Origin: Thermomicrobium sp. CFH 73360
GTDB lineage: Bacteria; Chloroflexota; Chloroflexia; Thermomicrobiales; Thermomicrobiaceae
Assembly (NCBI RefSeq): GCF_023806465.1
Contig: NZ_JAMSLS010000001.1
Location: 620,001-684,000 of the forward strand
DNA length: 64,000 nucleotides
Direction of reading: 5' to 3'
Below the pieces are notes generated by a model that was not told the origin of the DNA, ran no database searches, and saw only the letters and a list, made by a program, of their open reading frames with translations. The position numbers and the translations under genes are program-made. Shown here one piece after another: positions 24,652 to 45,863 of this stretch (position 1 is the first letter of the stretch; the number at the start of each line of letters is the position of its first letter).

Positions 24652-24915
24652 CTAAACAAGCTGCGACGGTGCATTCTTTACGATACCGATCGTGACGCGC
24701 TTAGCCACTGAGGCCTGTGGAAGGATGTAGAATTGCACGGTGTCATTGTCCTGGTCGATGGCCCGCTCCAGTTCCTGCTGGAGGCGGCGGAGCTGTGCAG
24801 GAGTCAATTCTCCCTCGAGGAGAGAGTTCTGCACCCAGGTTAAGTACTTGCGGCAAATCTTGAGTACTCGTGCGACCCGTTCCACCCCCACGTCATAGGC
24901 GACGATGACGTACAT
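24652..24915 (-). CDS. cas2: CRISPR-associated endoribonuclease/integrase subunit Cas2
   Basis: 87 residues, normal for Cas2. Ferredoxin-like fold beginning MYVIVAYDVGVERVARV with the conserved Asp (D9) after the first strand, then RKYLTWVQNSLLEGELT, typical of type I-B proteins. Cas2 bridges two Cas1 dimers during spacer integration. It is last in the operon, 74 bases after cas1. Confidence 0.95.
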   Translation of the reverse strand: MYVIVAYDVGVERVARVLKICRKYLTWVQNSLLEGELTPAQLRRLQQELERAIDQDNDTVQFYILPQASVAKRVTIGIVKNAPSQLV

Positions 24916-24989
24916 CCCGACTCCCGTTTCCTCTGAGTTCCTGAGGTGCTGTTAGGAAGCATACCGAGGAGAGGAGCGACCCGGTGACG

Positions 24990-26578: not shown

Positions 26579-28956
26579 TTGAACCCTGTCTTCTCATCGT
26601 AAAACGACTCCAGTTGCTCACAAGTGATCAACCGCAGGTCCTCACGGCCGTGAAGAAGTGGCGGCGGCAGATTACCAACAGCGCGCTGCAATAGTGGCGT
26701 AATGGTATAGTACTCCAGTTCATGGAACGCTTCCCGCACGGCAAGACGGCGCTCATGCGGATGTTCGAGTGCCAGAGCGTTCAGTACCTTCTTGATGGCA
26801 GTCGTGGCATGATCATCCTGCTCCACCACAATACTCAGTGCGGGTAGTTCTTCAATAAGGCGGAAACAGCTGAGCGGAACAGAGGCACCCAACTTACGGC
26901 AGTCGACATTTGGACGATCGTAGTCGAGGGAAGCAACTGCCTTAAGTAAGGCTTCCGCATGGGCTTGACTAATCCGCTGCTCGATGGTTTGAAAGTAACA
27001 ATCGAGTCGTTGAATCAGTTCCAGATCGCTCATAGCTTCGGGTAGGTGAGAGCGTGCCGCCTCAAGCAGGATACGACCGTAGACGCGCTCTCCCTGACCT
27101 TCCTGCAGAGGGATCACTCGCAAAAACGCTAGAGATTGTTCAGCGTTTCGGTTGATACGCCCTGCCACCTGGAGCAAACTCTCGAGAGGCCCCCATTCTC
27201 GCCAGCCTACCTGAAAATCAACATCAATACCAGCCTCGACTACTTGCGTACTCACCAAGACAACGGGTTCACGTGCCAGGAGTAGCTTCTGTATTTCCGC
27301 GAGTCGCCTGCGGCGGTCACGGGGGGTAATGTTGGTGGACAGATAATAAAGATACGGGAAACTGTAACGCTCCAAGGCGCGATAGAGTTCAAGAGAAACC
27401 CGGATACTGTTCACGACAATGAGTTGACTGCGATCCCGAATGCCTGCGATCGCCTCAGCTAATTCTGGTATCGTTTGAGGGGCTATGGGCTGCAGCACGA
27501 CTCTTGACGGGTAGTCCGTCAGCGGCGGATCCACAAGTTCAAGCGCGGCACCAGACTCGACCAAACGCGGCTGGGTCGCCGTCATAAGGATGACTGTGAC
27601 ATTCCATTCTGGAAGATCGGCAAGAAGTGCCCGAAGAAGAGGCCAATAATGGGCATCAAGCGCCTGAACTTCATCAAGAATAAGGATAGAACCAGAAACC
27701 AGCGTATGCAATTTTTTGAGCGATCTATTTTGATACCCGACTAACGTATGGAACACCTGCACAAACGTTGTAAGCACTATCTCCGCATCCCAGGACTCTG
27801 CGAGGAGCAGTGCTTCGTCCACATCAAGATCTTCCTCAAACTGGTCCTGATTCGCAGCTTGTGCCGCAGTGTGACTGGCACCGCGCCGCACTAGAGGCGC
27901 AAGATGATGATGCTCGATCAGGACATCGTCTGGGTCAAACCCACCCGTAACGAGAACATTCCGTACCACAGATGCTGTCTGCTCAATGAGATTGATATAC
28001 GGCAATGCGTAAATAATACGAGGGCTCCAACCACACTCTTCCTCGACACGCGCACGGATAGTCAGCGCTGCGTGCAAGACCGCAAGCGTCTTCCCTGCTC
28101 CCGTTGGTGCAGTGAGGGTGAGAAGTGCAGGGAAAAGCTCCGGGAGCGGGCGCAGAGAAACCTGTCGGGCCACAGTCTCAAACAATACTCGCCGCTGCCC
28201 TTGCAAAGGACTAGCGCGGGAGCTAGTGGTTGCCAGGTAGCGAACGACGAGATCACGTGGCAAGCGAACCCGTTCGGGATTCTGGTATTGTGCGGCAAGC
28301 TTCTTATCCGCATCGATCAAAGCGGAAAAGAGAATATTGATCTCCCAGTAGCGACGGCGTGCCTGGGGATCATGAAGAGTCGGCAAGGCATGAACTTTAA
28401 GACGCCACGCCTCCTCGCAAAGCTCCCGAAGAATATCCCATATCTCGCCCTGAAGAAATGGAGTTGGGTCAGGCAGCGCTAATTTCTCGCATAATGAAGG
28501 CCAACTCTTCGCCACCTCTGGAATTTGCCGACAAAGGGCACGGAGTACACGTCGTAAGCCTTGCCGATCGACAGTCAAGAAGTCAGGTGGATCAATATCG
28601 TCCGGATCAGGGAGGAGAGCTGCCGGAGTGCGCAATGGACCGTGGTGACGGGCCACAGCAAGGAAAACCGCCAGTGCATCGAAACCTCTTTGCTGAGCCA
28701 CCCAGGCCCCAAAGAGTGCACCAATGTATGCGTGATTTGCCGCCGGATCTGCGAACTGTGGGTTGTTTAAGCGCTGCTGAAAGAACGGAGTTGCTTTCCC
28801 TAAATCATGCACCAAGCCGACAAGCTCAGCCATTTCGGCAAGCGAGGGAGGAGCGAAGTTCCGCGCAAGTGTCCCCACCGCACGGAGATGGGTCACGAGC
28901 TCTTCCCCCTCCCTAGCAAGCCACTCATTCGTATGGTTTAGTCGATCAGGGCCCAT
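26554..28956 (-). CDS. cas3: CRISPR-associated nuclease-helicase Cas3
   Basis: 800 residues. HD nuclease at the N-terminus (LVHDLGKATPFF, H50-D51; NHAYIGALF, H75; ARHHGPL, H104-H105) followed by a superfamily 2 helicase: Walker A APTGAGKT (283-290), DEVQ box in ILILDEVQALD (428-431), motif III LMTATQPRL, and a C-terminal motif VSTQVVEAGIDVDF with LLQVAGRINRN. It degrades the displaced strand after Cascade recognition. HD and helicase are fused in the normal order, and no domain is broken. The start overlaps the end of cas5 by 19 bases. Confidence 0.97.
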   Translation of the reverse strand: MGPDRLNHTNEWLAREGEELVTHLRAVGTLARNFAPPSLAEMAELVGLVHDLGKATPFFQQRLNNPQFADPAANHAYIGALFGAWVAQQRGFDALAVFLAVARHHGPLRTPAALLPDPDDIDPPDFLTVDRQGLRRVLRALCRQIPEVAKSWPSLCEKLALPDPTPFLQGEIWDILRELCEEAWRLKVHALPTLHDPQARRRYWEINILFSALIDADKKLAAQYQNPERVRLPRDLVVRYLATTSSRASPLQGQRRVLFETVARQVSLRPLPELFPALLTLTAPTGAGKTLAVLHAALTIRARVEEECGWSPRIIYALPYINLIEQTASVVRNVLVTGGFDPDDVLIEHHHLAPLVRRGASHTAAQAANQDQFEEDLDVDEALLLAESWDAEIVLTTFVQVFHTLVGYQNRSLKKLHTLVSGSILILDEVQALDAHYWPLLRALLADLPEWNVTVILMTATQPRLVESGAALELVDPPLTDYPSRVVLQPIAPQTIPELAEAIAGIRDRSQLIVVNSIRVSLELYRALERYSFPYLYYLSTNITPRDRRRRLAEIQKLLLAREPVVLVSTQVVEAGIDVDFQVGWREWGPLESLLQVAGRINRNAEQSLAFLRVIPLQEGQGERVYGRILLEAARSHLPEAMSDLELIQRLDCYFQTIEQRISQAHAEALLKAVASLDYDRPNVDCRKLGASVPLSCFRLIEELPALSIVVEQDDHATTAIKKVLNALALEHPHERRLAVREAFHELEYYTITPLLQRAVGNLPPPLLHGREDLRLITCEQLESFYDEKTGFKWDLNQFV

Positions 28957-29693
28957 CGCTCTGATTCGATCTGCAGCCAGCGTCCACGATAGCGGCAGCG
29001 GATAGGATACCCTCGCAAATCGACAATGAGATCCCGTGCGTCGACGAGGCGCCGTTGCTTATCCAGGCGGACCGGATAGCGGTCGCGGGAAAGGCGATGC
29101 GGAGTACGCTCATCCAGCACAAACTCCTCAATCTGCGAGGCATCCAAAGCCCCAAGATAATCAGCAACAGAGGGGTCATCATGTCCGACCTCAGCCTCGT
29201 GAACCTCAACCCCCTCGATCCACCCAAGACAATAGGCTGTGCCGAGTGCCGGTGGATAGATCGGAGCTCGCAGTGCCTCTGCCAATTGACCTACGGACAG
29301 TCCTTCCGGAGGCACCAGAACCAGATGAAATCGCAGTGATGTCGTGTCCCAGTCATCGAAACTTGTCTCTGGCAGCAGAAATTGTGTAGGAATCTGTGTC
29401 CGCGGCTCGAAACCACGAAGCTCTCGTTCGGTACCCGACTTCACCATCAGCGCATTGGTTGATTGAAGCAGTGCGCGAAGTGGCTGTCGCACACCGATAG
29501 CCATCTGCAATGTGCGCAGTCTCTCCGGATAGTCACTTGGCTCCAGGCCCAGTGCAGCGGCCACCAAGCCGCGGATCGTTGAGGGGGGCGGTATCGGATA
29601 GCTCAACGATGACGAGTTCGTATAGAAGCGCCGGAAATGAGCAAATTTTCCGCAGAGGTCACAGTGGACAACCGCAACCATTGCGCGCCTCAC
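28938..29693 (-). CDS. cas5: Cascade subunit Cas5 (type I-B)
   Basis: 251 residues. The N-terminus VAVVHCDLCGKFAHFRRFYT and SYPIPPPSTIRGLVAAALG is the RAMP Cas5 signature for types I-B/I-C. Cas5 caps the 5' handle of the crRNA. The GTG at 29691-29693 overlaps the cas7 stop (GTGA); an ATG four codons in (29681) with GTGAGG upstream is equally possible. The C-terminal half is less conserved, as usual. Confidence 0.93.
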   Translation of the reverse strand: MRRAMVAVVHCDLCGKFAHFRRFYTNSSSLSYPIPPPSTIRGLVAAALGLEPSDYPERLRTLQMAIGVRQPLRALLQSTNALMVKSGTERELRGFEPRTQIPTQFLLPETSFDDWDTTSLRFHLVLVPPEGLSVGQLAEALRAPIYPPALGTAYCLGWIEGVEVHEAEVGHDDPSVADYLGALDASQIEEFVLDERTPHRLSRDRYPVRLDKQRRLVDARDLIVDLRGYPIRCRYRGRWLQIESERWALID

Positions 29694-30667
29694 CCGCTCA
29701 CCCGCACAACGTGGGGCAGTTGCAAAAGCGCTTCTTCACCGCGGACGTTGAGCTCGTCGTGCCGCCAGTAGCGGACACTGGCAATGTCGTCGCGATAGCG
29801 CATGATGCGGCTGACCAGCGGCTGAAGATCGAGCACAAACTCCTCGATACTCCGCCAGCGCTCGACGGGAAGCTCCTCTTGGGCCGCCAGGAGACGAAGA
29901 CCGTCGCGTGGATCGCCGAACGACGGCGCACGGTCCTTCCAGTCAACACGCAGATATAACCGTGGCGTCTGTCCCAGTTTACTTCGCGTGGTCGCCTCAC
30001 TGGAGAGCGCATGAAGGAGTGCATCCTCCAGTGCCTCAAGATCCTCAGCTGTCATCTGCGTTGCCTTGGCGCGGTGGGCGGCAACGTGCCCCCAAAAGGC
30101 GATCAGGGCATAAAGAACACGCCAGTCCTTCCCGATGGTTCCGTATTCGCCCTTTTCTCCCCCACGACCAGCAAACATCGAGGTAATACTGTTTGATGGG
30201 TTTATTTCCACTGGATGCAGAGAGTATCCCCAGCTAAACTGAACAGGCCCGGTATATTGCTCGGACAGCCCACGACTACTCTGACCCGCTTTAATTGGTA
30301 GTGTTGCACCAAAAAGGCGGACATCAATAAGTCGGCTCAGGAACCATTGCCGGTATTCCTCGTCGGATCGGGTGCCTCGACGACCAAGCTGCTGCCCGGT
30401 TTCCTGCTCGAAAACCTTCCGCAAGTCTTCCTCGCGTTGCGTCGCATCCACGCGGCTGCCATCGTCCCGCGTGCGCACCCAGACATCCAAATCTCGGGAG
30501 AGCCAGTAGTCACGGAGGAAGCGCTTCAACCGAACATCGCTCACCAGCACGCGCTGCGTGAACGGATCCATGCGCGGCCGATTCTCATCGTCCGGATCAC
30601 CATTCGGGTTCGTCAGCTTGGCATCATACAGGAACAACAGGTCGGCATTCCGTACCTGGTTATCCAT
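29690..30667 (-). CDS. cas7: Cascade backbone subunit Cas7 (Csh2-type)
   Basis: 325 residues. Csh2/Cas7b features: DLLFLYDAKLTNPNGDPD near the start, RMDPFTQRVLVSDVRLKRFLRDY, and GPVQFSWGYSLHPVEINPSNS with FAGRGGEKGEYGT in the middle. Multiple copies coat the crRNA spacer. It is followed by cas5 with a four-base overlap and preceded by cas8b with a 40-base gap. Confidence 0.95.
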   Translation of the reverse strand: MDNQVRNADLLFLYDAKLTNPNGDPDDENRPRMDPFTQRVLVSDVRLKRFLRDYWLSRDLDVWVRTRDDGSRVDATQREEDLRKVFEQETGQQLGRRGTRSDEEYRQWFLSRLIDVRLFGATLPIKAGQSSRGLSEQYTGPVQFSWGYSLHPVEINPSNSITSMFAGRGGEKGEYGTIGKDWRVLYALIAFWGHVAAHRAKATQMTAEDLEALEDALLHALSSEATTRSKLGQTPRLYLRVDWKDRAPSFGDPRDGLRLLAAQEELPVERWRSIEEFVLDLQPLVSRIMRYRDDIASVRYWRHDELNVRGEEALLQLPHVVRVSG

Positions 30668-30707
30668 TGCGTTCTCCTTCCTTGACTCGCTTCATGCGCG
30701 TTTGCCT

Positions 30708-32900
30708 CTACTGTACTTCTTGTAGCTCGGCAGCTGATTTGTCACGCCCGCGACGAATCATCCGACCCGTTTCATAGGCGTAGCCAGCTAAAACGAAATA
30801 GACGTTTTCCGCGTCAGTTAATGGCCAGTGGGAGCGATGTCGAGTGAGTTGCTGGATCGCCTCAGCGAAGAGCACCTCATTCTCCGCTGCATACTCACCA
30901 CTGAGTAACCGATACTGGCGTAGTTTGTCAAATAACTCATTCGCAAAGACGATCACTCGTGGTAACGACATGCCACTGTAGTTTAATTTCTCTAGGATCG
31001 GCTTTGTTCTGGACTGATCACTCCGATATTGCTCTGTTGCTACTCGCGCAAGCAAGACCCCCAGCAAGAACAGCGACTGCTCCTGCTCTGAAAGACCAAG
31101 TTCTCGCATCGCCGTACGGTACGATTCTGGCACAAGCACACTCACTGCAGCACCTCCAAAAGACGTGCACCCAACCTCACGTACGATAAGTCGCAAGGCA
31201 AGGGTACGAGCAAGGTACGCCCGCATCACCCGATCCACCTCTTCGGAGGATGGGGAGCGATCTTTCCATTGTTGCGAGACAAGCCAATATCCAGTGTGAG
31301 CGCTACGAATTGCACGAACCCCTTCCACAAACGCAGCATGGAGATCAGCGAGATCGATCGGCTCCTGTTGTAGAAGTTGACGAGTCAGTGTCAATGCCGG
31401 TCGGATCACTGGCCTCCCCTCACTGCGGCGAATGGGAAGTGTATCTAACAAAGCATCGAGTCCATCAAACCACACTTGATTGATAGGCCCGACGAGAGGC
31501 TCAGCCCAGCCGCCAGCCCCAGCTGCGTCGTTGACTTGATTGATCGCCACAATCACCTGCTGGACACGCGAGGGCGGTACCTCCGCCACGACTTCGCGGA
31601 TTTTAACCGCCATGTTCTGCTTTTCGTGGAAGAGCAACGTCAATGCAGCGTAGCGAGCTGAGCGCTCTTGTGCAACCGCCGCAAGGTCTTTTGTCGCCTG
31701 CCGAAGTTGCTTGACGCGACCAAGCTCAGTAGCCTGCTGCCGTATGCTTTGGAGAACTCGTCGAACGCCATGAAGATCCGTGGACGGTTGCAGCACAAGT
31801 TCTGGAACAAGGAAAACCGGCGACCGAAGGAGCTGCACTTCCAATTCCTGCTCCAGGAGTCGATCAGCAATTAACAGATAGGTGTAGCACCTCTGACATA
31901 TACTATAGCGCTCCCAAAATCCATCTCTCCGAAGATTTCCAGCAAAACTGACTTTATCATTAATGAATATCTTTATTCGCATGGGCACAAAATTGGAAGT
32001 AACCACCGCTGTCTTTCCGCAAAGGTGACAAGTACCGCTGATGCTCTCCTGCCCCTGAAACGGCTCATCGAGAAGAACTGAACGTATGTATTCACGGTAT
32101 GCTGATTGTTCAGCAATCGGGCAGCCTTCAATGCTCAGGGTAATGTACTGGACCTCCTTCTTCCATCCCAGCGCTTCACGAAGCTCATGCGTCAGCGCGT
32201 CGCGCAATCCCTTGGCCAGCTCGTCAGGCCGCTCTTTTCGCCCTTGCGGGGCCTCTTGCCTCAGCTTGTCCCAATTGATCTGCACAATACCATCATGCAC
32301 CTGAAGAATTCCTTCCTTTATCGTTGTAGTCGGTGGCGGATCGAGCCGCAGACCGTCGAGCTTTAAGAAAAAGCGATCTCGCGGCCGCACCGATTTCTTA
32401 AACTCCTCTAATTCCTGCACATCACAAAGGGCCGTAAAAATGTTATTCAACTCTTGAAATTCATGCAGATTCTTAAAGTCATACAGCATCGGCTTTATCG
32501 GCTGAATACTCGGCTCCAGTTTATCCAATGCTGGATGCTGCGATTCCCCCAACAGAAGCCGTGGAGCAAGACCAACGAAGACGGGACCAAGCAGATACTT
32601 CAAGTCGCGGACCGTTACGTCGCGTACGTCGCCACCTGGCGAGAACTTCATAAGCTGGAGCCATAGGAAACGCCGCAAGTTCTCGGCGCTTGCTTCCACG
32701 AGATGGTGTCGTACAGTTCGAGTTGACGGCGACACATCGAGCACGCCGATGTAGGTGCGCGCTGTGCTTACCTTCCCATCACCCGCCAACGGTGGACTGT
32801 CATCAGCAGTCGTCAATGCCAGTTGCTCGACGATCGCTTCAGGATCATCCCGAAGCAGTTCGGCAATCGATCGTCCTAATGCGTACAGACTCCGGATCAT
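30708..32900 (-). CDS. cas8b: Cascade large subunit Cas8b (Csh1/TM1802 type)
   Basis: 730 residues. Assigned by context and overall pattern: a large protein between cas6 and Csh2-type cas7, with a zinc-finger-like pair CHLCGK (about residue 292) and CQRCYTYLL (about 340) typical of TM1802/Csh1 proteins. The large subunit recognises the PAM and recruits Cas3. The sequence is fast-evolving, so no catalytic motif is expected. ATG at 32898-32900 overlaps the cas6 stop in ATGA. Confidence 0.92.
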   Translation of the reverse strand: MIRSLYALGRSIAELLRDDPEAIVEQLALTTADDSPPLAGDGKVSTARTYIGVLDVSPSTRTVRHHLVEASAENLRRFLWLQLMKFSPGGDVRDVTVRDLKYLLGPVFVGLAPRLLLGESQHPALDKLEPSIQPIKPMLYDFKNLHEFQELNNIFTALCDVQELEEFKKSVRPRDRFFLKLDGLRLDPPPTTTIKEGILQVHDGIVQINWDKLRQEAPQGRKERPDELAKGLRDALTHELREALGWKKEVQYITLSIEGCPIAEQSAYREYIRSVLLDEPFQGQESISGTCHLCGKTAVVTSNFVPMRIKIFINDKVSFAGNLRRDGFWERYSICQRCYTYLLIADRLLEQELEVQLLRSPVFLVPELVLQPSTDLHGVRRVLQSIRQQATELGRVKQLRQATKDLAAVAQERSARYAALTLLFHEKQNMAVKIREVVAEVPPSRVQQVIVAINQVNDAAGAGGWAEPLVGPINQVWFDGLDALLDTLPIRRSEGRPVIRPALTLTRQLLQQEPIDLADLHAAFVEGVRAIRSAHTGYWLVSQQWKDRSPSSEEVDRVMRAYLARTLALRLIVREVGCTSFGGAAVSVLVPESYRTAMRELGLSEQEQSLFLLGVLLARVATEQYRSDQSRTKPILEKLNYSGMSLPRVIVFANELFDKLRQYRLLSGEYAAENEVLFAEAIQQLTRHRSHWPLTDAENVYFVLAGYAYETGRMIRRGRDKSAAELQEVQ

Positions 32901-33649
32901 CGCCTCGGCACCTCTCGATCAGGGACCTCCTCCACATACCCGAACCCTTGACTGTTTTTCGCCCCGAGCCCCGCTTCGAGCGCAAGCCGGAGGTACTCCG
33001 CCGGCCCTTCCAGCAGAAATCGCCCGACCCACCCTTCGATCCAAGTCCCCTTGTAACATTCCAGCCGTTTGCCCCTCGGATGCACACTGAGCGCCTGCAC
33101 GCGGACTGTCCCCTCCCTCCCCTCCACACCGAGAACCGACGCCTTGCGCCGGAGATTGGCGACCACCAGCTCGCCAAATTCCTCATGCAGTGGGTTGTAG
33201 TACTGTGTGCGCCGCTTTCCCTCGATCTCCAGCGTCCGATAGACCGTGATCGGCGAAAGGGCTCGTACCACCAGCCGCTCCTCCAGCGCCGGCAATGCCA
33301 GTGTGGCAATCTCCCGCACTGCAAACTCCAACGTCGCAATCCGTATTCGGCCAAACCGCAACAAGCCTGCTGCCAGCCCCAACGCCAGATCTCGCTCTGG
33401 CGACGCAAAGCGGAACCAGACCGGCCCCCTGATCTCGACCCCTTCACCCGGCCGATACTGGACCTCCCCATGGAGCTGCGAGAAGACAAACAGCTTCAGT
33501 GGCCGTTCACTCTGCCAATAGGCACCATCGTGCAACGGCTGCCCAATCTCCCGCGGGAGATGTCGATAGATCATCGCCTGCAGCGCCTCACGGTACTGCA
33601 GGGGAAGGACCCCTAACCGGTCCGGCTCCAGCCGGATCTCCAGACGCAC
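32897..33649 (-). CDS. cas6: CRISPR pre-crRNA endoribonuclease Cas6
   Basis: 250 residues. RAMP fold with the C-terminal glycine-rich loop in EAGLGAKNSQGFGYVEE (about 222-238). A histidine such as H30 (MIYRHL) or H40 (QPLHDGAYW) may be the catalytic base. It cuts within the repeat to leave an eight-base 5' handle, CTTGAAAC for this array. GTG start (33647-33649). First gene of the cas operon. Confidence 0.93.
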   Translation of the reverse strand: MRLEIRLEPDRLGVLPLQYREALQAMIYRHLPREIGQPLHDGAYWQSERPLKLFVFSQLHGEVQYRPGEGVEIRGPVWFRFASPERDLALGLAAGLLRFGRIRIATLEFAVREIATLALPALEERLVVRALSPITVYRTLEIEGKRRTQYYNPLHEEFGELVVANLRRKASVLGVEGREGTVRVQALSVHPRGKRLECYKGTWIEGWVGRFLLEGPAEYLRLALEAGLGAKNSQGFGYVEEVPDREVPRR

Positions 33650-33685
33650 CGTCTTCCCTACCCAATTGCATCACTGCTCACTCAA

Positions 33686-33714
33686 CCTTAACCGCCCAAC
33701 TCATGCTCTGTCAA
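33686..33714 (-). promoter_or_regulatory. Promoter of the cas operon
   Basis: Minus strand TTGACA (33714-33709), 17-base spacer, TTAAGG (33691-33686), about 37 bases upstream of the cas6 start. Perfect -35, fair -10. No CRISPR-repeat-like sequence was found immediately beside it. Confidence 0.6.
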
Positions 33715-35024
33715 GAGCCCCTTTTGTTTCCTAGTATCCTTGACCCACGGGAATACTGGTGTTCCCGTTGCACTGCAGCATCAGGCACGCTCGAGAAACA
33801 CACCAACGACCAGGGGCGCCCAGCCCCTCCGCAGCAGCCTCCACACCCCATGCCCAGAAGGTTTGTGAGCCAAGAACGAGCATCCGCCGCCGCTCACTGC
33901 CCCCGACTTCAGTGACGAGAGTCGGAACAAAACCAACCCGGCAAGGGGGACCCTCGCATCTCCGTGGCCTCGACCGCTCAGTAGTTCAGTACTCCGCCAT
34001 CAGCATCCCCCAAGAAGAGCTCGCCTGAAAGACAAGCCACTCCGAGGCCAACGCCCCCCGCAGTCCTAGCACTCACCACCGAACGAGCAAAATGGTACGG
34101 CGTTACCGCAGCAGGAACTCAAGGAAGGGCCCAGTTGGGGAGTGCACCGTCCGCATGGGACGCCCGGAGGGGACGCGATGCCTCGTGCCATGCGACGTCT
34201 CACCATGAATGAACGAACGACCCGTCACCGTCCGACATGCTTCCCTTCCGGCAGACGGAATTCTTTTTGTGCCGATTACCCAAACCAAGCCTGACCGACA
34301 CAGCACTGCTCAACCCGCAACTGGTTCCGACAGTCAGCAGACTGCTCGGTGCACGTGCCGGGAGAAAGCAGCGGCTTTCGAAGCCAGTTTCCCAAAACGC
34401 AGTGGCATGGAACGCTCTCGCCGCGCTTCTCGAACTCTTGCTGCGCAGGCCATGGCGCACGCACGCGAACCAACGTCGCCGCAAGGAGGTGACAATCTCC
34501 TTGAAATCAGAGAAGCGACCGAGGCATGAGCGCACGTCCACCCATTCTGGGCACGCCTGGCCGTTGCACTCGAGCTCCTCACTGTGAGGGCCAACTCTCC
34601 AAACAGGAGGATGTTCGGCCGGGAGAGAAACAAAGAGGAAGCCGCCCTACCGGGTGTGGGGAATGGCGTACGACTTTTCCACGAGGTGATCCTCCAGCTG
34701 CAGGATTCGGTACCTCGGAGACTCAGAGTTGCGAGGAGCTCTGCCCAGCGGTGTTCCGCGTGAATTAAGGATCTCCAGAACACTCCGCAAACACTCGCGG
34801 CACGACGGCACTCACGGAGACCCCGTTAGCGCCGCAAGGGGGAAGAAAGATGGTCGGGTCGCCGTGAACAGGTATCCGGCCCATTGGTGTCGCAGTGCGG
34901 AGACCTATCGGCACGGAGAGAGCCTCGGTGACAGCCGCACACCACAGACCAACTCGCTGGCCAGGCAATGCAGCGAGGACAGCATGATGTCACCAGAGGC
35001 GAACCACCGCTTGGCAACCATCGG
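33715..35024. other. Gene-poor region between cas promoter and tRNA-Ser pair
   Basis: About 1.3 kb without a convincing gene. Open frames up to 150 codons occur but their translations lack family character. I looked for RNase P, SRP and tmRNA core sequences by eye and saw none. No clear periodic repeat here, unlike further right. Confidence 0.45.
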
Positions 35025-35116
35025 CGGGAAGGGTGGGATTCGAACCCACGGGGGCGAGTTTTGCTCGCCCCAATCGCTTAGCAGGCGACCCCTTTCGACC
35101 TCTCAGGCACCTTCCC
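35025..35116 (-). tRNA. tRNA-Ser (anticodon GCT)
   Basis: Acceptor GGGAAGG with CCTTCCC, anticodon loop CTGCTAA (anticodon GCT), long variable arm GGGGCGAG...CTCGCCCC, T-arm GTGGG-TTCGAAT-CCCAC, discriminator G. The long extra arm confirms a serine tRNA. CCA is not encoded. Seventeen bases downstream of the other tRNA-Ser. Confidence 0.94.
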
Positions 35117-35133
35117 AAAGAACGGGCCCGCGG

Positions 35134-35217
35134 CGGAGAGGGAGGGATTCGAACCCCCGAGGCTCATCGCCTTGCCGTTTTCAAGACGGCCGCCTTCAAC
35201 CACTCGGCCACCTCTCC
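35134..35217 (-). tRNA. tRNA-Ser (anticodon TGA)
   Basis: Acceptor GGAGAGG with CCTCTCC, anticodon stem GCCGT/ACGGC with loop CTTGAAA (anticodon TGA), long variable arm, T-arm with TTCGAAT. It is the first of a two-gene serine tRNA unit on the minus strand. CCA is not encoded. Confidence 0.94.
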
Positions 35218-35231
35218 GCGCACCACGCTCT

Positions 35232-35259
35232 AGTGTACAGACCACCACTCGAGCGTGAA
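35232..35259 (-). promoter_or_regulatory. Promoter-like elements of the tRNA-Ser pair
   Basis: Minus strand TTCACG (35259-35254), 16-base spacer, TACACT (35237-35232); transcription would begin about eight bases before the first tRNA. A second -10-like TATACT lies further upstream, near 35275. Confidence 0.4.
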
Positions 35260-36120
35260 GCCCGTGCTGACAGTATAGCAGCGATGGAGGAGATCAGTCC
35301 AGGGAGAGCGCGACCGCTCAAGTGGCCGCTCTCCACCGAATCGGCGGGGGTCAGCCCATCCAATGCCGTACAAGGTCGTTCGATCGCCGCTCTGACTGCA
35401 CTTGCCAGGCACTCTCCAATTCCGCAGCATTCACCACTCTGCCTTTTCAATCGGCCGTTGTCGACTCCGCATCGTACGGACAGAGGAGAAGCCTTCACAC
35501 GTGACCACCCTGCCGCACCACGAACCTGCACTGAGCACTCGACGAACGCAACTCCCCGCTCTTTCGTGCCCCGATGCGAAGACATTGAATCTGGAGAATA
35601 AGCGCCACGGACGTCACATTGCTGGTCGTGAGTGCGGGTGGGTGGAAAGCCTTGTAGTGGCACGATGCAGGACCGCAGTACCCTTGGCGGGACACGACCG
35701 GCTTGCGACCGTTTTACGGCAGATTTCTCGAGTCATCTCTGCAGTCCGCTCGTGTTCGTGCGCACCTGCACCCCTTGCGCCCGCCAGGTCAATGAGCGCC
35801 TTGGGAGATACGCCACACTGTCTGTGAGGTGGTGATCGCAAGGACAGCAACGCAATCGTCGGACAAACAGTCACCATGGGACGAGCACGTCAGCTTCTTC
35901 CCATACCTCTAGTGTCTGCCGACGCAACGGGGCCGACCTGCGGGCGATGACAACGCTCGGGCAGAAGGATCGGTCTCGTCCGGCCTGTGCCGCGCTCCGA
36001 CGCACCGCCGTCGCCACTCCTGTGCGAGCTGCAAATAGTGTTTGCTGTCCTCCACCGGAGTCAACCGTGTTGCGCGAGATGAGCCCGGGGCAACACCGTG
36101 ACCGCTCGGGACACGCCAGT
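35260..36120. other. Gene-poor region, no gene seen
   Basis: Frames up to 155 codons on the minus strand have no recognisable character. From about 36060 the sequence begins to show the CAGC-centred periodicity described in the next repeat entry. Confidence 0.4.
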
Positions 36121-36533
36121 CAGCAAAGGCTGGACAAGAACTCGCTGCGCTCCACTGAATGCGTCCATGACACACACGGTCCCAGCAAACGGCGAAGCCC
36201 TCGACCTCCCCGTCCGGGTCGTGATCGTCTGCGTCCATGACACACACGGTCCCCAGCCCATCCTCGACGAACAGCAGGCATCGCCATTGGGAACAACCGC
36301 GGGAGCGCATGGGGTATCAGCTCGAATTGTCGGGCCAAAGGCAGCGCACCCGGCACCAGCACCCGCAGCGCACCCGCGTATCAGCTCGAATTGTCGGGCC
36401 AAAGGCAGCGCACCCGGCACCAGCACCCGCAGCGCACCCGCGTATCAGCTCGAATTGTCGGGCCAAAGGCAGCGCACCCGGCACCAGCACCCGCAGCGCA
36501 CCCGCGTATCAGCTCGAATTGTCGGGCCAAAGG
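36121..36533. repeat. Tandem direct repeats, period 62-71 nt (core units exactly 64 nt)
   Basis: Four copies of a segment starting GTATCAGCTCGAATTGTCGG begin at 36314, 36378, 36442 and 36506; the first three units are identical over 64 nt. To the left, the 23-nt segment beginning GCGTCCATGACACACACGG occurs at 36161 and 36231 (70 nt apart), and a shared CAGC anchor recurs at 36121, 36183, 36254, 36318, 36382, 36446 and 36510. Because 64 is not a multiple of three and frames differ between copies, this is not a protein repeat. The spacing equals that of the CRISPR units at 40097-45863, but the sequence is unrelated to that repeat. Confidence 0.85.
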
Positions 36534-37048
36534 GAATTCGTGCGCTCCCGCTCGTTTCACCGGAAAGATGCGCGATCCACGCCATCCACCCCGTTTTCCA
36601 GCGGACGCCCAACCCGTACTTCTATGCTGTGGGCGTAGGTATTGACTGTTGCAGAGAAGAGACGTCCTCTCTCCAGCCACACGCATGGCGCAGCGTCTTC
36701 GGCCCAGCGGATACAAGTGGTCACTCGGGTCCATGCCTGTCCCGCAATCACTCTGGGCTTCTCCAACCAGTCCAGTACAGGGAGCACCTCTGAGGTTTCC
36801 TGACCGGCGCGAGACACTGCCGGGTCGTTCCCTTCGCTCAGACCGGTGGCAGCTCGAAGATTTCCCGACTCAGGCTTGCCGAGAGGCGAGGCCTCCACAT
36901 GCGAACGATAACCGCTAAATCATTGAGCTTCTGGCAAACCGCTCGGCGGTCTCCTACGACTGAGGTACGACACGTCGCTCGTGAGCTCGCGGACGCAAGC
37001 CGACGATGAACCGTCAAGCGAGAACCTCGGCGTCCATCGTCGTCGACT
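36534..37048. other. Gene-poor region between two repeat blocks
   Basis: No gene and no clear repeat seen over about 500 bases. Confidence 0.4.
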
Positions 37049-37400
37049 CCAATCACGAAGCGTCAGGGAGGAACTGACGCCGAGTTCACGACTGACCCCC
37101 TGCAGCATGCAGTCGCCATTCATGAAGCATGAGGTGAGAACTCCTCGAGCGTCGCCCGAACACGCTCATGAATGCCATCTCCATTCATGAAGCATGAGGT
37201 GAGACGGAGGACTCGCTCACGGCCTCCTGGCGGATGCCGGAATCTCCATTCATGAAGCATGAGGTGAGACGGAGGACTCGCTCACGGCCTCCTGGCGGAT
37301 GCCGGAATCTCCATTCATGAAGCATGAGGTGAGACGGAGGACTCGCTCACGGCCTCCTGGCGGATGCCGGAATCTCCATTCATGAAGCATGAGGTGAGAC
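37049..37400. repeat. CRISPR-like block: five 24-25-nt repeats spaced 65 nt apart, plus one decayed copy
   Basis: The element beginning CCATTCATGAAGCATGAGG begins at 37116, 37181, 37246, 37311 and 37376, always 65 nt apart. A decayed copy (17 of 24 matches) starts at 37049, 67 nt before the first. The 40-nt interval after 37116 is unique; the three after 37181, 37246 and 37311 are identical to one another. The element contains the palindrome TTCATGAA. Repeat and interval lengths look like a small CRISPR, but the repeat does not match the large array and three identical intervals also fit simple tandem duplication. Confidence 0.85.
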
Positions 37401-38117
37401 CCCAGCTTCACCGATTGACGGCAACCTTGGAACAACCCACGAGCTTGCAACACAACCGGTAGCAACCCAGTTTCACCCCGTATTCGAATCGTCGGCTGCT
37501 CTCCTCGACCGATCGGGTGCCGGTGGTACCCTGCCGCTTTCTCCCGTGATCTGCAACGACAACAGTGTCCGACGGGGGAGTCCTTCACGGCGGGCGATTA
37601 CCGTCATGTATCTGGGACAGGGACGCTCGTGCCCAACAGGAACGGATCCACAGCTGGAACGGAGCCCATCGTCGGAGGGTCGAGGGTCCCTAATCCTCGT
37701 CTAACGAGAAGTCATGTCGAGGTGGAGCGCCCCTCAGAGACTCGGAGAGACACGCATGACGTGGGCTGACCGGAAGGGTTCCCGACGGTTCGGCAGACAG
37801 ACGCGAGGAAGCACCGTGGGGAGTGGCTCGCCTGGCAAGGGGGAACACGATGGTTCCCGTGGAACGGTTCTCCCCGTGCGACGCAATGATATCTTCTGTT
37901 CACCAAACACGAGGTCGACGGAGGCGATCGCAGTCGTTTGGCGCCGGTAGCGCGTCCTCACGGTGAGATGACAGTCATCAGATGATGAGCAAGGAGAGCT
38001 GCCCAAAGGCAGCCAGTGCTCGCACCGCTGGGTCACGTGCTTCCGCTCGTTCAGCATCCTTTGCATAGCCATCGGGCGACGTTCCTCACCGACCCAAACA
38101 CGTCCCTTCCACTCCTG
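37401..38117. other. Gene-poor region with faint periodicity
   Basis: CCCAGCTTCACC (37401) and CCCAGTTTCACC (37466) are 65 nt apart, continuing the spacing of the block to the left with a different sequence. Nothing else recognisable; no gene seen. Confidence 0.4.
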
Positions 38118-38201
38118 GTCCGAGCGCCTGCTTGACAAATGGGAGGGCGACGGGGGCGCGCAGACCTGGTCGACGATCGGGTCGGAGCTCCCGCTTGACA
38201 A
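38118..38201. repeat. Pair of 21-nt direct repeats 63 nt apart
   Basis: GTCCGAGCGCCTGCTTGACA (38118) and GTCGGAGCTCCCGCTTGACA (38181) match at 18 of 21 positions counting the following A. A weak third copy (GTGATCGCCTGCGTATCGAA) starts at 38243. The intervals of about 42 nt are unrelated to each other. Confidence 0.6.
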
Positions 38202-39310
38202 CCGAGAAGTCCTTCGCCCACCGAAGCACAACAGCCACTCTCGTGATCGCCTGCGTATCGAAGCCGTCCAACGCGTGGCCGGGCTCGTGTGCTCCTGCAC
38301 GGTGTACGGGTTCGTGTTCGGTGGCTGTCCATTTCCCACATCTTGTTAAAGACTTCCGACCACTTGCAACGGCACGGGTGTTATCGGGTGATCTCTGTGT
38401 TGGAGCCCGGCGGGCTAAGGCCGAGATCGTCCAGCGCTCGTCGGGATCAGCGAGTGTTCTCTGTCTGGTTTTTGTTGTGGACCATGGTCAGGAGCGCCTA
38501 TGCAATGGCACGTGCCGAAACACGTTTCCACGAGGACACCCTGCGCATGACAGCTTTGAGAAGGCAAGCAGGGATGTCTTGGGACAGCAGAGAAAACCGG
38601 CATGCCCTTTCGAGCCGTTCTCTGATACGCATTGGAACAGCGCATCCGGCCAGTCTTCTCAGCGACGGAGTCAAGGGACCTTTCGGCGCAACCTGCGATG
38701 GGAAACTCACCTTCAGACTGATTGGCGTTGCAACACGTCACCGGCGGCCGGCACCCGCGTTCGCTACTTCCAGAGGTGCATCACGAAGACGATTGGTAAA
38801 GGCCCGGAAAGCCAGTCGGGCCCCAAGAGGCGACTGTGCGCCTTCTCTTTGCGAGACACTTTGATGGCGAGGCGAAGTCGCCCCCGCGTCCACCCGTACG
38901 AGCGGCTTCTCTTGCTGAACAATTCGCGGCAACAGGCGAAAGCAGGGTGATGCACCAGGACATGGCACCCTTCGGCCGACCGCACTTTTGTCGATGCCCC
39001 CAGCGCAATACTCGAGTCGCGCGAGATGCGAGCCTTCACCGCCGGTCGACGATGGCGATACCTTGGCTTGACAGCTATGGCAGCCATAGCCGTCTGCTGC
39101 GACAACAGAGGGGCATCTGCCTACTCCCGGGTGCGGCGAGGTCGGGCCGGAGCAACTCCTGTGAGGAGTCTGGGAGCTTCTCGACCAGGCATCCGGCATT
39201 CCGCGGTCGCAGTGGAGCGACTGCCGTCAGAGACCACGACGTTAAACCCTTCTCGGTTACCCTCAGTCAGGCTGCATCATGGTCCTACCCCCAGCACCCT
39301 GCAGACCTCT
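38202..39310. other. Gene-poor region, no gene seen
   Basis: About 1.1 kb with overlapping frames on both strands (up to 270 codons on the plus strand) that lack recognisable protein character and carry codon use unlike the neighbours. No convincing repeats in the middle part. Confidence 0.4.
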
Positions 39311-39876
39311 TGTAGAAGCCCCTGAGGACGTGACGGATGCTCCCTCACGACCACAACGAGTGGCGTAGCGAGCGCATCTGCAACCCTGAAGAAACGTGTC
39401 GGATCGCATGGTCATACCTGATCCCTCTCTTCTGCTCGCATCTGCGCCCTTGAGCATGCGTGTCAGATGCTTCCACTCCTTACGCGCAAAAGGCCGCGCC
39501 GGCCTGACCGCAGTCAACACCCTCCCCGAGTGCGATGATCTTGCCGCCAAAAGGTCTTCGTTTCAAGCCCTCATAGGTACTGTGCGAGGATATTGACTGC
39601 GGTGATCTTGCCGCAGGTTCCAACCACTCGCCTCAGCCTCACGGCAGTTGGGCCGGGGGCATCTACGACATCCGGGTCGACGCTCATTCGCTTGTACGAG
39701 CCGCAGTGGGTCCTAATGTAGGATGCATCTACGACATCCGGGTCGACGTGGTGGTCGTCGAGGACGCCTTCGATATAGACGAATGCAGGACGCATCTACT
39801 ACATCCAAAACAACGCGATCAGCCCTCGGCCAGCCCATCACTGACAAGTGATGGATCTACTTCATCCAGGTCGACG
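39311..39876. repeat. Decayed direct-repeat array, period 61-68 nt, just left of the CRISPR leader
   Basis: Related short elements recur at near-constant spacing. CCCTGA-GA-CGTG-CGGAT elements are at about 39320, 39384 and 39448 (64 apart), with GCATCTGC leading the last two. TGCGATGATCTTGCCGC (39531) and TGCGGTGATCTTGCCGC (39598) are 67 apart. GCATCTACGACATCCGGGTC is at 39659 and 39725, with weaker copies at 39792 and 39853. The intervals of about 40 nt are all different. It looks like an array whose repeats have drifted stepwise; neither this consensus nor its intervals match the main CRISPR repeat, apart from the inverted piece at 39560-39583. Confidence 0.65.
39560..39583 (-). repeat. Isolated, inverted partial copy of the CRISPR repeat
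   Basis: These 24 bases are the exact reverse complement of the last 24 bases of the 30-nt array repeat (the part ending GGGCTTGAAAC); the first six bases of the repeat are replaced. It stands about 510 bases left of the first true repeat, reads on the minus strand and keeps the eight-base handle CTTGAAAC. It lies inside the decayed repeat array, between the two TGATCTTGCCGC elements, and is flanked by an 11-base inverted repeat (39507-39517 and 39593-39603). Confidence 0.9.
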
Positions 39877-40028
39877 AAGATGCAGCACTTTTCTCCTCGC
39901 GCGATGGTGCATCCGAAGGGGGCTGACGGAGCCGTCGACCACCGGTACTGCAAAAAGCCCCGGGGGTCGACGAATTCCGGGACCTGCTCTTCACCCTGAA
40001 ACCATACGGACTGCGAATACCCACCCCC

Positions 40029-40057
40029 TTGCCCTGCGCAGGTTTGCGTGCTACGTT
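40029..40057 (+). promoter_or_regulatory. CRISPR leader promoter
   Basis: TTGCCC (40029-40034), 17-base spacer, TACGTT (40052-40057). Transcription would begin about 30 bases before the first repeat, in the direction that yields crRNAs with the CTTGAAAC handle. The leader is not AT-rich. Confidence 0.5.
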
Positions 40058-40096
40058 TATCAAAGAGGATCGTCGCATCCGTGCGGCGCCCGTTTG

Positions 40097-43000
40097 GTTC
40101 AGACAGTACCTATGAGGGCTTGAAACATCGTCGCCACAGGGATCTAGCGCGACAGAAAGGAGGGTTCAGACAGTACCTATGAGGGCTTGAAACCCGAGAT
40201 CACCATGGCACTGGATGCAGACGGGGCGGGTTCAGACAGTACCTATGAGGGCTTGAAACGAGCTCCGGTCGACCGTGCAGCCGCTGTTTCGCAGGTTCAG
40301 ACAGTACCTATGAGGGCTTGAAACGGGATTGCGCTCGAATTCGGACGATGGCCAGTCCACGTTCAGACAGTACCTATGAGGGCTTGAAACAACAGGCCGT
40401 GCAGGCTGCCAATGGTAAGCGCCATCGTTCAGACAGTACCTATGAGGGCTTGAAACGGCGGTTGTAGCGGTACATGAGTTCGACGAGGCGCGTTCAGACA
40501 GTACCTATGAGGGCTTGAAACAGCGATTGCGCTCCTCCTCGCTAATCTGGTGGTAGCGTTCAGACAGTACCTATGAGGGCTTGAAACTCGCGTGCGGTTG
40601 GTCAACAACCTCGCCAGTCTCTGGTTCAGACAGTACCTATGAGGGCTTGAAACCTGGGATCTTCGCCGAAGGGGCAAGGGAAGAGGAAGTTCAGACAGTA
40701 CCTATGAGGGCTTGAAACGTCATAGAGCGCCAGATAGGGGAGATCCTGCGTCAGTTCAGACAGTACCTATGAGGGCTTGAAACTGCGGATCAGGACCGCT
40801 TCCTTCGCCGGTTCATCACGTTCAGACAGTACCTATGAGGGCTTGAAACATAGTGCACCAACACTGGGCCCGTTTCGCGCATAGCTGTTCAGACAGTACC
40901 TATGAGGGCTTGAAACATTGCGATCGTTCGCGACGTCTTGCCGCCGAATGCATGTTCAGACAGTACCTATGAGGGCTTGAAACGCAGACTGGAGTTGGCG
41001 TGATGTCTGGGCCTACATGTTCAGACAGTACCTATGAGGGCTTGAAACGCCGGTGTCTCCGCATCGCCGTCATTTCGCCGCGGAGCGTTCAGACAGTACC
41101 TATGAGGGCTTGAAACACGGACGTCCCGCCATGCCCCCACGCCGCCATGAACGTTCAGACAGTACCTATGAGGGCTTGAAACGCGGCATGCCTCGGAGCT
41201 CTGGGAAATCGACGATCTGTTCAGACAGTACCTATGAGGGCTTGAAACAGAATATCAACAGCCATCAATAACAGTAACGCTATGAGTTCAGACAGTACCT
41301 ATGAGGGCTTGAAACAGGGGTGGTTGGAGCTCCGTACCGTGCCGCCGCGCCGTTCAGACAGTACCTATGAGGGCTTGAAACACGGACGAGGTCATCCGTG
41401 ACGCTCAGGGGTGCATGTTCAGACAGTACCTATGAGGGCTTGAAACCACGAACGAACCGGTCAGGAATGGGTCATCGATACGGTTCAGACAGTACCTATG
41501 AGGGCTTGAAACGAAAATCTCGTATTCCAGCGCCCTCAATACGCCACGTTCAGACAGTACCTATGAGGGCTTGAAACCGGGGCCAGAGACGGGGTGTCAG
41601 GCGAATCTGGAACCGTTCAGACAGTACCTATGAGGGCTTGAAACAGCGGTGGTTGGAGCTCCGTACCGTGCCGCCGCGCCGTTCAGACAGTACCTATGAG
41701 GGCTTGAAACACGGACGAGGTCATCCGTGACGCTCAGGGGTGCATGTTCAGACAGTACCTATGAGGGCTTGAAACCACGAACGAACCGGTCAGGAATGGG
41801 TCATCGATACGGTTCAGACAGTACCTATGAGGGCTTGAAACGAAAATCTCGTATTCCAGCGCCCTCAATACGCCACGTTCAGACAGTACCTATGAGGGCT
41901 TGAAACCGACATTGCGCGCCAGGATGCCCCACTTGACGGCAGTTCAGACAGTACCTATGAGGGCTTGAAACTGGGAGCAGCAGACCGGCCAGGATCAGAA
42001 GACGTTGTTCAGACAGTACCTATGAGGGCTTGAAACTGAAGAAACGGCTTCCACATCACACGCACCCCAGAAGTTCAGACAGTACCTATGAGGGCTTGAA
42101 ACCTCGAGCTCGGCAACGATGAGCTCCTGCACGGCAGTGTTCAGACAGTACCTATGAGGGCTTGAAACCCCCATCCCCATCGTGACAAGGAGGTTCCCGA
42201 ATGCGTTCAGACAGTACCTATGAGGGCTTGAAACCTCGACCCCGCCTTCGTCTATGCCCAACGCGGTGCGCGTTCAGACAGTACCTATGAGGGCTTGAAA
42301 CTTCATGAACACCGTCACCGGCGAGGAGAACCTTGGGGTTCAGACAGTACCTATGAGGGCTTGAAACTCGTGTTGCCACCTTGACCCAGGCGTCTCCATA
42401 CAGTTCAGACAGTACCTATGAGGGCTTGAAACGCGATACGATGGGCCCACTCCCAATCCCGGGCGTGGGTTCAGACAGTACCTATGAGGGCTTGAAACAA
42501 TACATTAAAGAACACGTAATGAACTTCGTTTGCAAGTTCAGACAGTACCTATGAGGGCTTGAAACTGTCACGGCTGGGCAATTTCTTCGGCTTGCAGTCG
42601 CTCGTTCAGACAGTACCTATGAGGGCTTGAAACTGGGGATGAGCGGAACATTGAGCGCTGGTTGGGTATGTTCAGACAGTACCTATGAGGGCTTGAAACT
42701 GGCCCCGCAGTGCCAATCGATGCCGGGGCAGTCCATGTTCAGACAGTACCTATGAGGGCTTGAAACCATGTGACGCCGCAGCGGGTGCAGGTGTTGGTCA
42801 ATGTTCAGACAGTACCTATGAGGGCTTGAAACGCGAGCTCCGCCACAATCAAGCCGGCGCTGCAGTAGTTCAGACAGTACCTATGAGGGCTTGAAACGTT
42901 ACCATCGCTGCGCCCCCTGGTGGAGCGTGCCTGTTCAGACAGTACCTATGAGGGCTTGAAACCAATGCGCGGAGAATGGGCGTCGAGCCGGTTTTCTCGT

Positions 43001-45863
43001 TCAGACAGTACCTATGAGGGCTTGAAACTCTCGTCACCGAAATGGACAATGGGGCTGACGGCCTGTTCAGACAGTACCTATGAGGGCTTGAAACCCTCCA
43101 AGAATAGCGGAAATCCGATAACTAGCATATGTTCAGACAGTACCTATGAGGGCTTGAAACCCGTGCCCTCACCGCTTGCGCGGTGAGGGCAGAAACGTTC
43201 AGACAGTACCTATGAGGGCTTGAAACCGGAGTGAATCCCTTAATAGGGCGCTCAGCATTTACGTTCAGACAGTACCTATGAGGGCTTGAAACCTCAAGCT
43301 CGGCCCGGAAGGCGGCCACCGCCGCGGCGTTCAGACAGTACCTATGAGGGCTTGAAACTGTATAAATCGTCAGTGTCATGTGAGCTCCAGAACGTTCAGA
43401 CAGTACCTATGAGGGCTTGAAACCAGAATAATCCAGAGCGGTGTCCGATCCTCCACGTAGTTCAGACAGTACCTATGAGGGCTTGAAACTCGGATACGCT
43501 CCATGACGCCCTCCTTCCAGCAGTGGTTCAGACAGTACCTATGAGGGCTTGAAACTCTCTTTCACTACTACTGCAATCTCGCAAACGTCTGGTTCAGACA
43601 GTACCTATGAGGGCTTGAAACCCGGAACGGGTCCTCTATCTGTCCCATGCGGAAGAGTTCAGACAGTACCTATGAGGGCTTGAAACTCGAGCGCGTTGTG
43701 CGCATCGATGGAGACGCTGTTGTTCAGACAGTACCTATGAGGGCTTGAAACGCGGATATACACGATAACATGCTCATCGCTCTCCTGGTCGTTCAGACAG
43801 TACCTATGAGGGCTTGAAACTCCGGTAAAAGTCGGACAACGCCTCATTGTAATTGCGTTCAGACAGTACCTATGAGGGCTTGAAACACCCCAGTGGGCCA
43901 CGTCGGGGCTGGGGAGGAGCTAGTTCAGACAGTACCTATGAGGGCTTGAAACCGCCAATAGAGGGGTGGTCGTCGCAGCGTTCCCCAAGTTCAGACAGTA
44001 CCTATGAGGGCTTGAAACCTCGTTGCGCGTCATCCATTGGCCTTGCCTCTCGAGTTCAGACAGTACCTATGAGGGCTTGAAACCCCAGGTGGCCAGTGCG
44101 GGCCGGTGCCATATGGCACGTTCAGACAGTACCTATGAGGGCTTGAAACAGCAGCTCCGAGAAGCGGTGGTCAAAGCGGGAGGCGTTCAGACAGTACCTA
44201 TGAGGGCTTGAAACGCAAAATCCACGAGCGCAACAGAACGACGAAATGTTGTTCAGACAGTACCTATGAGGGCTTGAAACCGGGCCTCGTGGATGCAGCA
44301 AGGGGCGCGACGCGGGGTTCAGACAGTACCTATGAGGGCTTGAAACAGGCTCGTCGCGCACTGGAGCTGGAACGAGCTCGGCGTTCAGACAGTACCTATG
44401 AGGGCTTGAAACTGATCACTCTAATCCGCATATCCCTTATGAAACACGTTCAGACAGTACCTATGAGGGCTTGAAACTGATCATAAAAGTCCACTCGGTA
44501 CAGTGTGCACTCAGTTCAGACAGTACCTATGAGGGCTTGAAACGCGCTCAATAATGCGCAGATTCCCCGCCGCGAACTTGTTCAGACAGTACCTATGAGG
44601 GCTTGAAACAGGAGCAATTCATCATCACAGGGGAACGAACCATCAGTTCAGACAGTACCTATGAGGGCTTGAAACTCGGATACGCACTGGCTGACCTCAT
44701 TAAGTCAGCTCAGTTCAGACAGTACCTATGAGGGCTTGAAACAGGTCTCTGTCGAGGGGGCATCAGCTGTTGTCGTACTGTTCAGACAGTACCTATGAGG
44801 GCTTGAAACAGCTTAAGTGTCTCGCAAATGTAGCGCAACTTATGCGTTCAGACAGTACCTATGAGGGCTTGAAACTAGGTCGTTGGTATCACGTATGCGC
44901 CGACGCTATAGGTTCAGACAGTACCTATGAGGGCTTGAAACCAGAAGATCAGGCATCACCTTCGGCCACCATGGACCGTTCAGACAGTACCTATGAGGGC
45001 TTGAAACGAGCGCGTGGGGCCGTTCGCAAACGCAGTGCACCTCGGTTCAGACAGTACCTATGAGGGCTTGAAACTCAATCTCGCCTCCTTCCCTTACTAT
45101 GCGGAAGCGCGTTCAGACAGTACCTATGAGGGCTTGAAACTCTCATCTCCAGATCAATGTGCCCATCACCACCGAGTTCAGACAGTACCTATGAGGGCTT
45201 GAAACTCAACAATGTGTCTCTCGCTTGTCGACGAGGAAACGAGTTCAGACAGTACCTATGAGGGCTTGAAACTTCGAGTAGCCCAACCCACTCAATGCGC
45301 CGCTGGAGTTCAGACAGTACCTATGAGGGCTTGAAATACGCACGAATCGTGTGCGTGCGTGCAGAGTAAGGAAGTTCAGACAGTACCTATGAGGGCTTGA
45401 AATAGCGATTGTGATAGAAGCACATGAAGTATGAGGCGTACGTTCAGACAGTACCTATGAGGGCTTGAAATTGGCGAGGAGCGAGCTCCGTATCAGAGAC
45501 CAATACGGTTCAGACAGTACCTATGAGGGCTTGAAATTCCTGTTACCTGATTAGGACGACGACTGTCTCATCCGTTCAGACAGTAGCTATGAGGGCTTGA
45601 AACCGGAACTCGGGGAATGCACCGCTCGGCGCCTCGCCGGTTCAGACAGTACCTATGAGGGCTTGAAACGCTGGTACGGGTATGTGGGCTGCTGCATAGC
45701 CGACTGGTTCAGACAGTACCTATGAGGGCTTGAAACGAGAAAGATGCGATTCCCCTCTCGTTGCTCCTTCATGTTCAGACAGTACCTATGAGGGCTTGAA
45801 ACCAAATTATCACGAACGAGGATCCGCTGGAATACGAGAGTTCAGACAGTACCTATGAGGGCT
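40097..45863 (+). CRISPR. Type I-B CRISPR array, 88 repeats and 87 spacers
   Basis: A 30-nt repeat beginning GTTCAGACAGTACC and ending GGGCTTGAAAC recurs every 64-68 nt (hand count 88, the last cut to 24 nt); spacers are mostly 34-38 nt. The conserved GAAAC end is that of type I-B repeats, so transcription is rightward and the leader is on the left. Repeats 80-83 (45308, 45374, 45442, 45508) end in GAAAT, repeat 84 (45574) has C to G at position 13, and the last (45840) is truncated, marking the old trailer end. Four spacers are duplicated in a block (from 41316 and again from 41645). The matching cas operon lies 6.4 kb to the left on the opposite strand. Confidence 0.98.

Follow-up and report, generated by a model that had tools for sequence, protein, structure and literature searches.

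The stretch of DNA analyzed here (the window) comprises 64,000 nucleotides of the genome of the hot-spring bacterium Thermomicrobium sp. CFH 73360 and carries a type I-B CRISPR (clustered regularly interspaced short palindromic repeats) locus, in which the cas operon is followed by two tRNA-Ser genes, a leader and the CRISPR array. Between the tRNA genes and the leader lie numerous short direct repeats that recur at the unit length of the array. With a probability of about 0.78, these repeats arose when the type I-B Cas1-Cas2 integrase inserted spacers off target, and some of the resulting scars grew into small arrays. The evidence comes from lag statistics in this stretch, from insertions with target duplication in a sister species (G004), and from the dimensions and edges of these structures. 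Besides the window's own genome (G000), the comparison included the nearest named relative, 'Bacterium HR28' (G006), and a further relative (G001).

Unit-length repeat pairs beside the leader

Pairs of 28-mers with at least 18/28 identity were counted over positions 35218-40090, from tRNA-Ser to leader, with exact tandem copies collapsed. Fifteen pairs were found at lags 61-70 and none at lags 51-60 or 71-80, while shuffled versions of the stretch gave a mean of 0.39 pairs at lags 61-70 and a maximum of 3 (300 shuffles). At a threshold of at least 20/28, 400 kb of the same genome yielded 38 pairs over lags 30-139, only one of which had a lag of 60-70, whereas this 4.9-kb stretch has 11, and a similar lag excess was not found in 685 kb sampled elsewhere in the window's genome. 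A first-pass annotation, made from the letters of the window, had proposed that the repeats share the period of the real array and that an excess over shuffled sequence would support this. Both the period (lags 61-70 against a mean array unit of 66.0) and the tie to CRISPR proved right. It had placed the phenomenon at 33650-40096, of which the part from the tRNAs to the leader stands; the 1.4 kb from cas6 to the tRNAs holds none of the repeat pairs and has to be removed, so that the periodic repeats are confined to the tRNA-leader stretch. The region could also be confirmed as gene-poor, since ten of its longest open reading frames (ORFs) had no Pfam match and Rfam gave the tRNAs alone above threshold. 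The following sites were identified:

36160-36253: site A, exact 24-nt repeat TGCGTCCATGACACACACGGTCCC in two copies, lag 70 (27-28 nt with one indel allowed)
36314-36533: site B, 28-nt repeat GTATCAGCTCGAATTGTCGGGCCAAAGG in four copies with an identical 36-nt insert three times, lag 64
36777-36869: site F, diverged 28-nt pair at 36777/36842 (20/28) with an insert of 37 nt, lag 65
37047-37404: site C, small array of six repeats of about 29 nt (ATCTCCATTCATGAAGCATGAGGTGAGAC), lags 67 and 65
38117-38201: site D, decayed pair (19/22), lag 63
38385-38464: site G, weak pair at 38385/38451 (12/14), lag 66, possible but not certain
39137-39230: site I, decayed 29-nt pair at 39137/39202 with an insert of 36 nt, lag 65
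39373-39468: site E0, decayed 32-nt pair (24/32), lag 64
39528-39614: site Er, 20-nt pair (18/20), lag 67
39659-39876: site E, small array of four repeats of GCATCTACGACATCCGGGTCGACG with three distinct inserts, lags 66, 67 and 61

All four repeat groups noticed earlier are present (36160-36253 with 36314-36533; 37047-37404; 38117-38201; 39373-39876), although the clear pairs of sites F and I and the weak pair of site G had been overlooked. As had been claimed, repeat sequences differ between sites, and they show no relation to each other. The insert of site Er (39548-39594) holds, at 39560-39583, an exact but inverted copy of the 3' 24 nt of the genuine CRISPR repeat. Sites with clear edges divide into repeat plus insert as 28 + 36 (B), 29 + 38 (C0), 29 + 36 (C2), 28 + 37 (F) and 29 + 36 nt (I); the remaining sites have 20-27 identical nt per repeat and edges that appear decayed.

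Sites C and E were classed as small arrays because each has several different inserts. At site C the leftmost repeat is decayed and there are three distinct inserts of 36-38 nt, one of them in triplicate, while at site E the two left copies of the repeat are identical and the two right copies decayed. The unit of site B was apparently multiplied in tandem at a later time. Site B and part of site C are perfect unit duplications, a feature of the genuine array too, in which a 329-bp block of five repeat-spacer units is duplicated (41286-41908).

Insertions in the sister species and the locus in relatives

The scan of G004 covered 707 kb, about a quarter of its genome; the assembly is fragmented, and its array is cut off where a contig ends. 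The scan revealed 68 pairs, 20 of them at lags 63-70, against a mean of 2.2 at other lags in windows of equal width. The 21 pairs at lags 60-72 have a median duplication of 29 nt, a median insert of 36 nt and a mean lag of 66.2. They are single and scattered over many contigs, partly within genes as judged with a simple ORF mask separating coding from non-coding DNA.

Alignments at four sites of G004, in which relatives have one copy or lack the unit of ~66 nt, demonstrate insertion with target duplication. At L120:2671-2830 a sequence of 27-29 nt occurs three times, and once each in 'Bacterium HR28' and in the window's genome. Extra DNA of ~66-68 nt at L120:2160-2259, L112:5969-6060 and L120:12076 is absent from 'Bacterium HR28', and that at L120:12076 also from the further relative; L162:1469 exceeds its counterpart in 'Bacterium HR28' by 66 nt. 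Two of these loci match intact ORFs of 'Bacterium HR28' (447 aa, read as a transporter solute-binding protein, and 476 aa, read as GcvT-like) with no corresponding long ORF left in the sister species.

The homologous locus of 'Bacterium HR28', which the first-pass annotation had suggested comparing, has the same order as the window (cas6, two tRNA-Ser, leader, array). Its counterpart stretch measures 3.5 kb against 6.45 kb, however, and is without lag excess, and the two can be aligned only at the tRNAs, the leader and one block of ~90 nt. As the DNA between these landmarks does not align, the empty sites of the window's scars are unreadable there. A block of 82 nt is conserved between window 37841-37922 and L040:6113-6194 (80%), amid otherwise unalignable DNA, and contains a TTCCCGT(T/G)GAAC motif similar to one upstream of cas6 (~33760); going by its sequence, it is possibly a promoter, an operator or a small RNA.

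No local lag excess was found at the loci of genus g3 or in the further relative, which have other array layouts. At a sister-genus locus (L055:6176) there is a single 25/28 pair at lag 66, ~0.2-0.3 kb upstream of another I-B array, and the leader-upstream DNA of the sister species has one weak pair (L197:1186). The scars of the window's genome cluster in a stretch without constraint immediately upstream of the leader, whereas those of the sister species are dispersed. The leader may attract stray integration, or the stretch upstream of it may merely tolerate insertions. That scars of the sister species also lie in neutral or dying genes fits untargeted insertion filtered by selection.

Several other repeats came up in these scans. 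A candidate in the window's own genome (L057:8113, lag 66) was rejected as lying in a coding DxDxDG repeat. The lag excesses at L184 and L185 of 'Bacterium HR28' are GC-rich or low-complexity repeats of another kind. The latter two (G006:C1:140001-180000) are dense in GGGGGTGAGGGTGGTCACC- and CCCCTCACCCCCAAC-rich repeats with many lags, apparently intergenic. Repeated palindrome-like units (CCTGGTAGCAGCTACAGGATACC) with a lag of 67 occur at L192:9000-9500 (G001:C1).

The resident type I-B system and the proposed agent of insertion

The source genome (3.06 Mb in 38 contigs) carries the following features in the window:

24652-33649, minus strand: type I-B cas operon, cas6-cas8b-cas7-cas5-cas3-cas4-cas1-cas2 (NCBIfam and PADLOC)
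24652-24915, minus strand: cas2, adaptation gene within the operon
24990-26063, minus strand: cas1, adaptation gene within the operon
25973-26578, minus strand: cas4, adaptation gene within the operon
35023-35116, minus strand: tRNA-Ser (GCT), left border of the scarred region (ARAGORN, Rfam)
35132-35217, minus strand: tRNA-Ser (TGA), left border of the scarred region (ARAGORN, Rfam)
39933-39978, plus strand: leader element, inverted repeat GTCGACC...GGGTCGACG, upstream of the genuine array; 87% in the alignment with 'Bacterium HR28'
40097-45869, plus strand: genuine type I-B array with 88 copies of a 30-nt repeat, spacer length 35-39 nt (mode 36), mean unit 66.0

The cas products matched Cas6, Csh1-type Cas8b, Csh2-type Cas7, Cas5, Cas3, Cas4 and Cas1b (9e-132) in NCBIfam and PADLOC, and both tRNA-Ser genes of the first-pass annotation were found. 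The repeat of the genuine array ends in GAAAC and degenerate repeats occur at its right end, which places the leader on the left side, facing the scarred region. The same leader element is present in the I-B leaders of L040 ('Bacterium HR28'), L054, L055 and L197, and judged by its sequence probably binds a regulator or an adaptation factor.

We infer Cas1-Cas2 as the agent from several observations. The dimensions agree, with medians of 29 + 36 nt and a lag of 66.2 in the sister species against 30 + 36 (mode) and a unit of 66.0 in the genuine array. In the sister species, G is the first base at 23 of the 38 duplication edges (60%, P = 1.3e-4), and neighbouring positions are nowhere near this value. 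Off-target sites of the Streptococcus thermophilus II-A Cas1-Cas2 in vitro have 54-57% G, and a G preference was described as common to diverse Cas1 proteins (PMC6895254). Among 34 inserts no sequence similarity was found, which disfavors a mobile element. Two inserts contain pieces of their own genome's CRISPR repeat, namely the 24 nt of site Er and 13 nt at L118:1143, the latter a length attained once in 20000 shuffled inserts. The window's genome and that of the sister species each gave one cas1 match; in the former this is of type I-B, and a second cas1 was not found.

Under the explanation favored here, Cas1-Cas2, probably with Cas4, would put a processed fragment of ~36 bp into DNA other than the CRISPR repeat. 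Two staggered strand transfers, as at the array, would leave ~28-30 bp of target sequence duplicated on both sides of the fragment, giving a repeat-spacer-repeat unit of ~66 bp whose repeat is arbitrary. Further spacers may have been added at some scars (C and E), giving tiny new arrays, and repeat recombination may have multiplied others (B and C), while in the sister species some integrations would have landed in genes and broken them. The window's own scars would have formed in the same way as those of the sister species. We infer this order of events, as we do any use of the new arrays.

The CRISPR link that the first-pass annotation had drawn stands, but instead of either of its two origins, older arrays or periodic non-coding repeats, new spacer-sized insertions duplicating ~28-30 bp are favored, because the structures of the sister species are single, scattered, partly in genes and matched by uninserted sites in relatives. 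It is unlikely that several older CRISPR arrays with different repeats, imported or inherited, are decaying beside the living array. Sites C and E do each contain several different spacers and are decayed at one end, as such relics might be, but 3.7 kb would have to hold eight or more unrelated repeats, mostly of two copies each, and isolated single insertions with uninserted sites in relatives occur elsewhere in the genus. A bona fide array of another CRISPR type would have one conserved repeat in many copies, a leader and matching cas genes; here the repeats are unrelated between sites and number 2-6 copies each, and the genome gave no second cas1 match. A type I-E-like repeat pair (CGGTACACCCCCA.GTGCGTGGGG.CAAC, period 62) does occur elsewhere in this genome (L145:8979-9070, G000:C4), whose only cas1 match is I-B; it differs from the scars in that period and in having a recognizable repeat. 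For sites C and E, an origin in place is more likely than inheritance from a different CRISPR system. That the 24-nt repeat piece at 39560-39583 or the block conserved with 'Bacterium HR28' marks a functional non-coding element, such as a CRISPR RNA (crRNA)-like regulatory RNA of the CreA/CreR type built on partial CRISPR repeats, appears very improbable. A regulator of this kind might retain precisely these 24 nt from the 3' part of the repeat, yet the piece is absent from the region in 'Bacterium HR28' and sits in a duplication-flanked insert like the others, and the other sites have no repeat-like part; for 39560-39583 an RNA of this type is the less likely reading.

Ordinary short tandem duplication or slippage in neutral DNA could account for the perfect tandem units of site B and part of site C, but hardly for sites A, C0, C1, D-F, I and E, where unique inserts between the repeats are not a slippage product. 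The stretch moreover has a single lag class rather than a broad spectrum, with no comparable excess in the 685 kb sampled elsewhere, and we consider this origin barely credible. Equally little credit can be given to a mobile element or other integrase, for example casposase-like, that duplicates ~30 bp. Insertion with target duplication in the sister species is what such an element would produce, but the inserts are just ~36 bp long, both lengths are those of the resident CRISPR, and neither a shared terminal sequence nor a coding autonomous copy was seen. Transposon target duplications are usually 2-15 bp and those of casposons about 14-15 bp, and we know of no other integrase that duplicates ~30 bp.

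A number of points weigh against off-target spacer integration as the origin of the repeats. Some pairs of the window have repeats of 20-24 nt with inserts of 41-47 nt, and fit 30 + 36 only if their edges have decayed. Window edges carry G in ~7 of 16 cases (about 44%), which is not significant, so that the 60% figure pertains to the sister species only. Part of the pairs of the sister species may be due to chance (~2 expected at such lags), and no clear dispersed cases were found in the sampled DNA of 'Bacterium HR28' and the further relative. Uninserted sites for the window's own copies were not found in 'Bacterium HR28', whose homologous stretch is too diverged. Phage and plasmid searches did not reveal donors of the inserts, and the exact 22-nt cores of three inserts had no match in IMG/VR. 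The window region itself likewise had no match that would indicate a phage or plasmid origin.

Relation to known systems

On balance, we lean towards the broader view that the CRISPR integrase has been an insertional mutagen across the genomes of this thermophile genus on an evolutionary timescale, leaving dozens of 66-bp scars, hitting genes and seeding new multi-spacer arrays whose repeats are arbitrary, and that in one species this happened mainly beside its own leader. Ordinary genomes would then carry numerous scars of varying age, some of them in genes, with relatives retaining the uninserted sites and with small arrays that apparently developed from single scars. If true, this is a natural record of the birth of CRISPR arrays and of the mutational cost of adaptation, and it opens to testing how far adaptation damages the host and whether misplaced spacers give rise to new CRISPR arrays. 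Direct-repeat pairs at the unit length of the resident CRISPR can be scanned for in any genome collection.

Non-canonical spacer integration giving neo-CRISPR loci was reportedly described by Nivala, Shipman and Church in 2018 (Nat Microbiol 3:310) and proposed as a route to new CRISPR loci, with a few putative natural cases said to occur in Yersinia pestis and Sulfolobus islandicus. The loci reported there resemble the present ones in having a spacer-sized insert flanked by a repeat-length duplication of a non-CRISPR target. The present cases differ in being natural, of type I-B and numerous (21 pairs where a quarter of one genome was scanned), and further in the leader-side cluster of another genome, the multi-spacer offspring arrays, the uninserted sites and the broken genes. 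Spacer integration off target is well established in vitro, and has also been observed in cells overexpressing Cas1-Cas2 (PMC11788318, which cites the 2018 work).

The in vitro work on S. thermophilus II-A (PMC6895254) agrees with ours in the G at the integrated position (54-57% there and 60% in the sister species), but is biochemical, with mainly half-site products on plasmids and no genomic record. With the genuine I-B array at 40097 the scars share the unit of 66, the repeat of ~30 and the unique spacers, while differing from it in their arbitrary, site-specific repeats, usually of two copies, and in having no leader of their own that could be recognized. Off-target integration is a known activity, and it is the scale seen here that is unusual.

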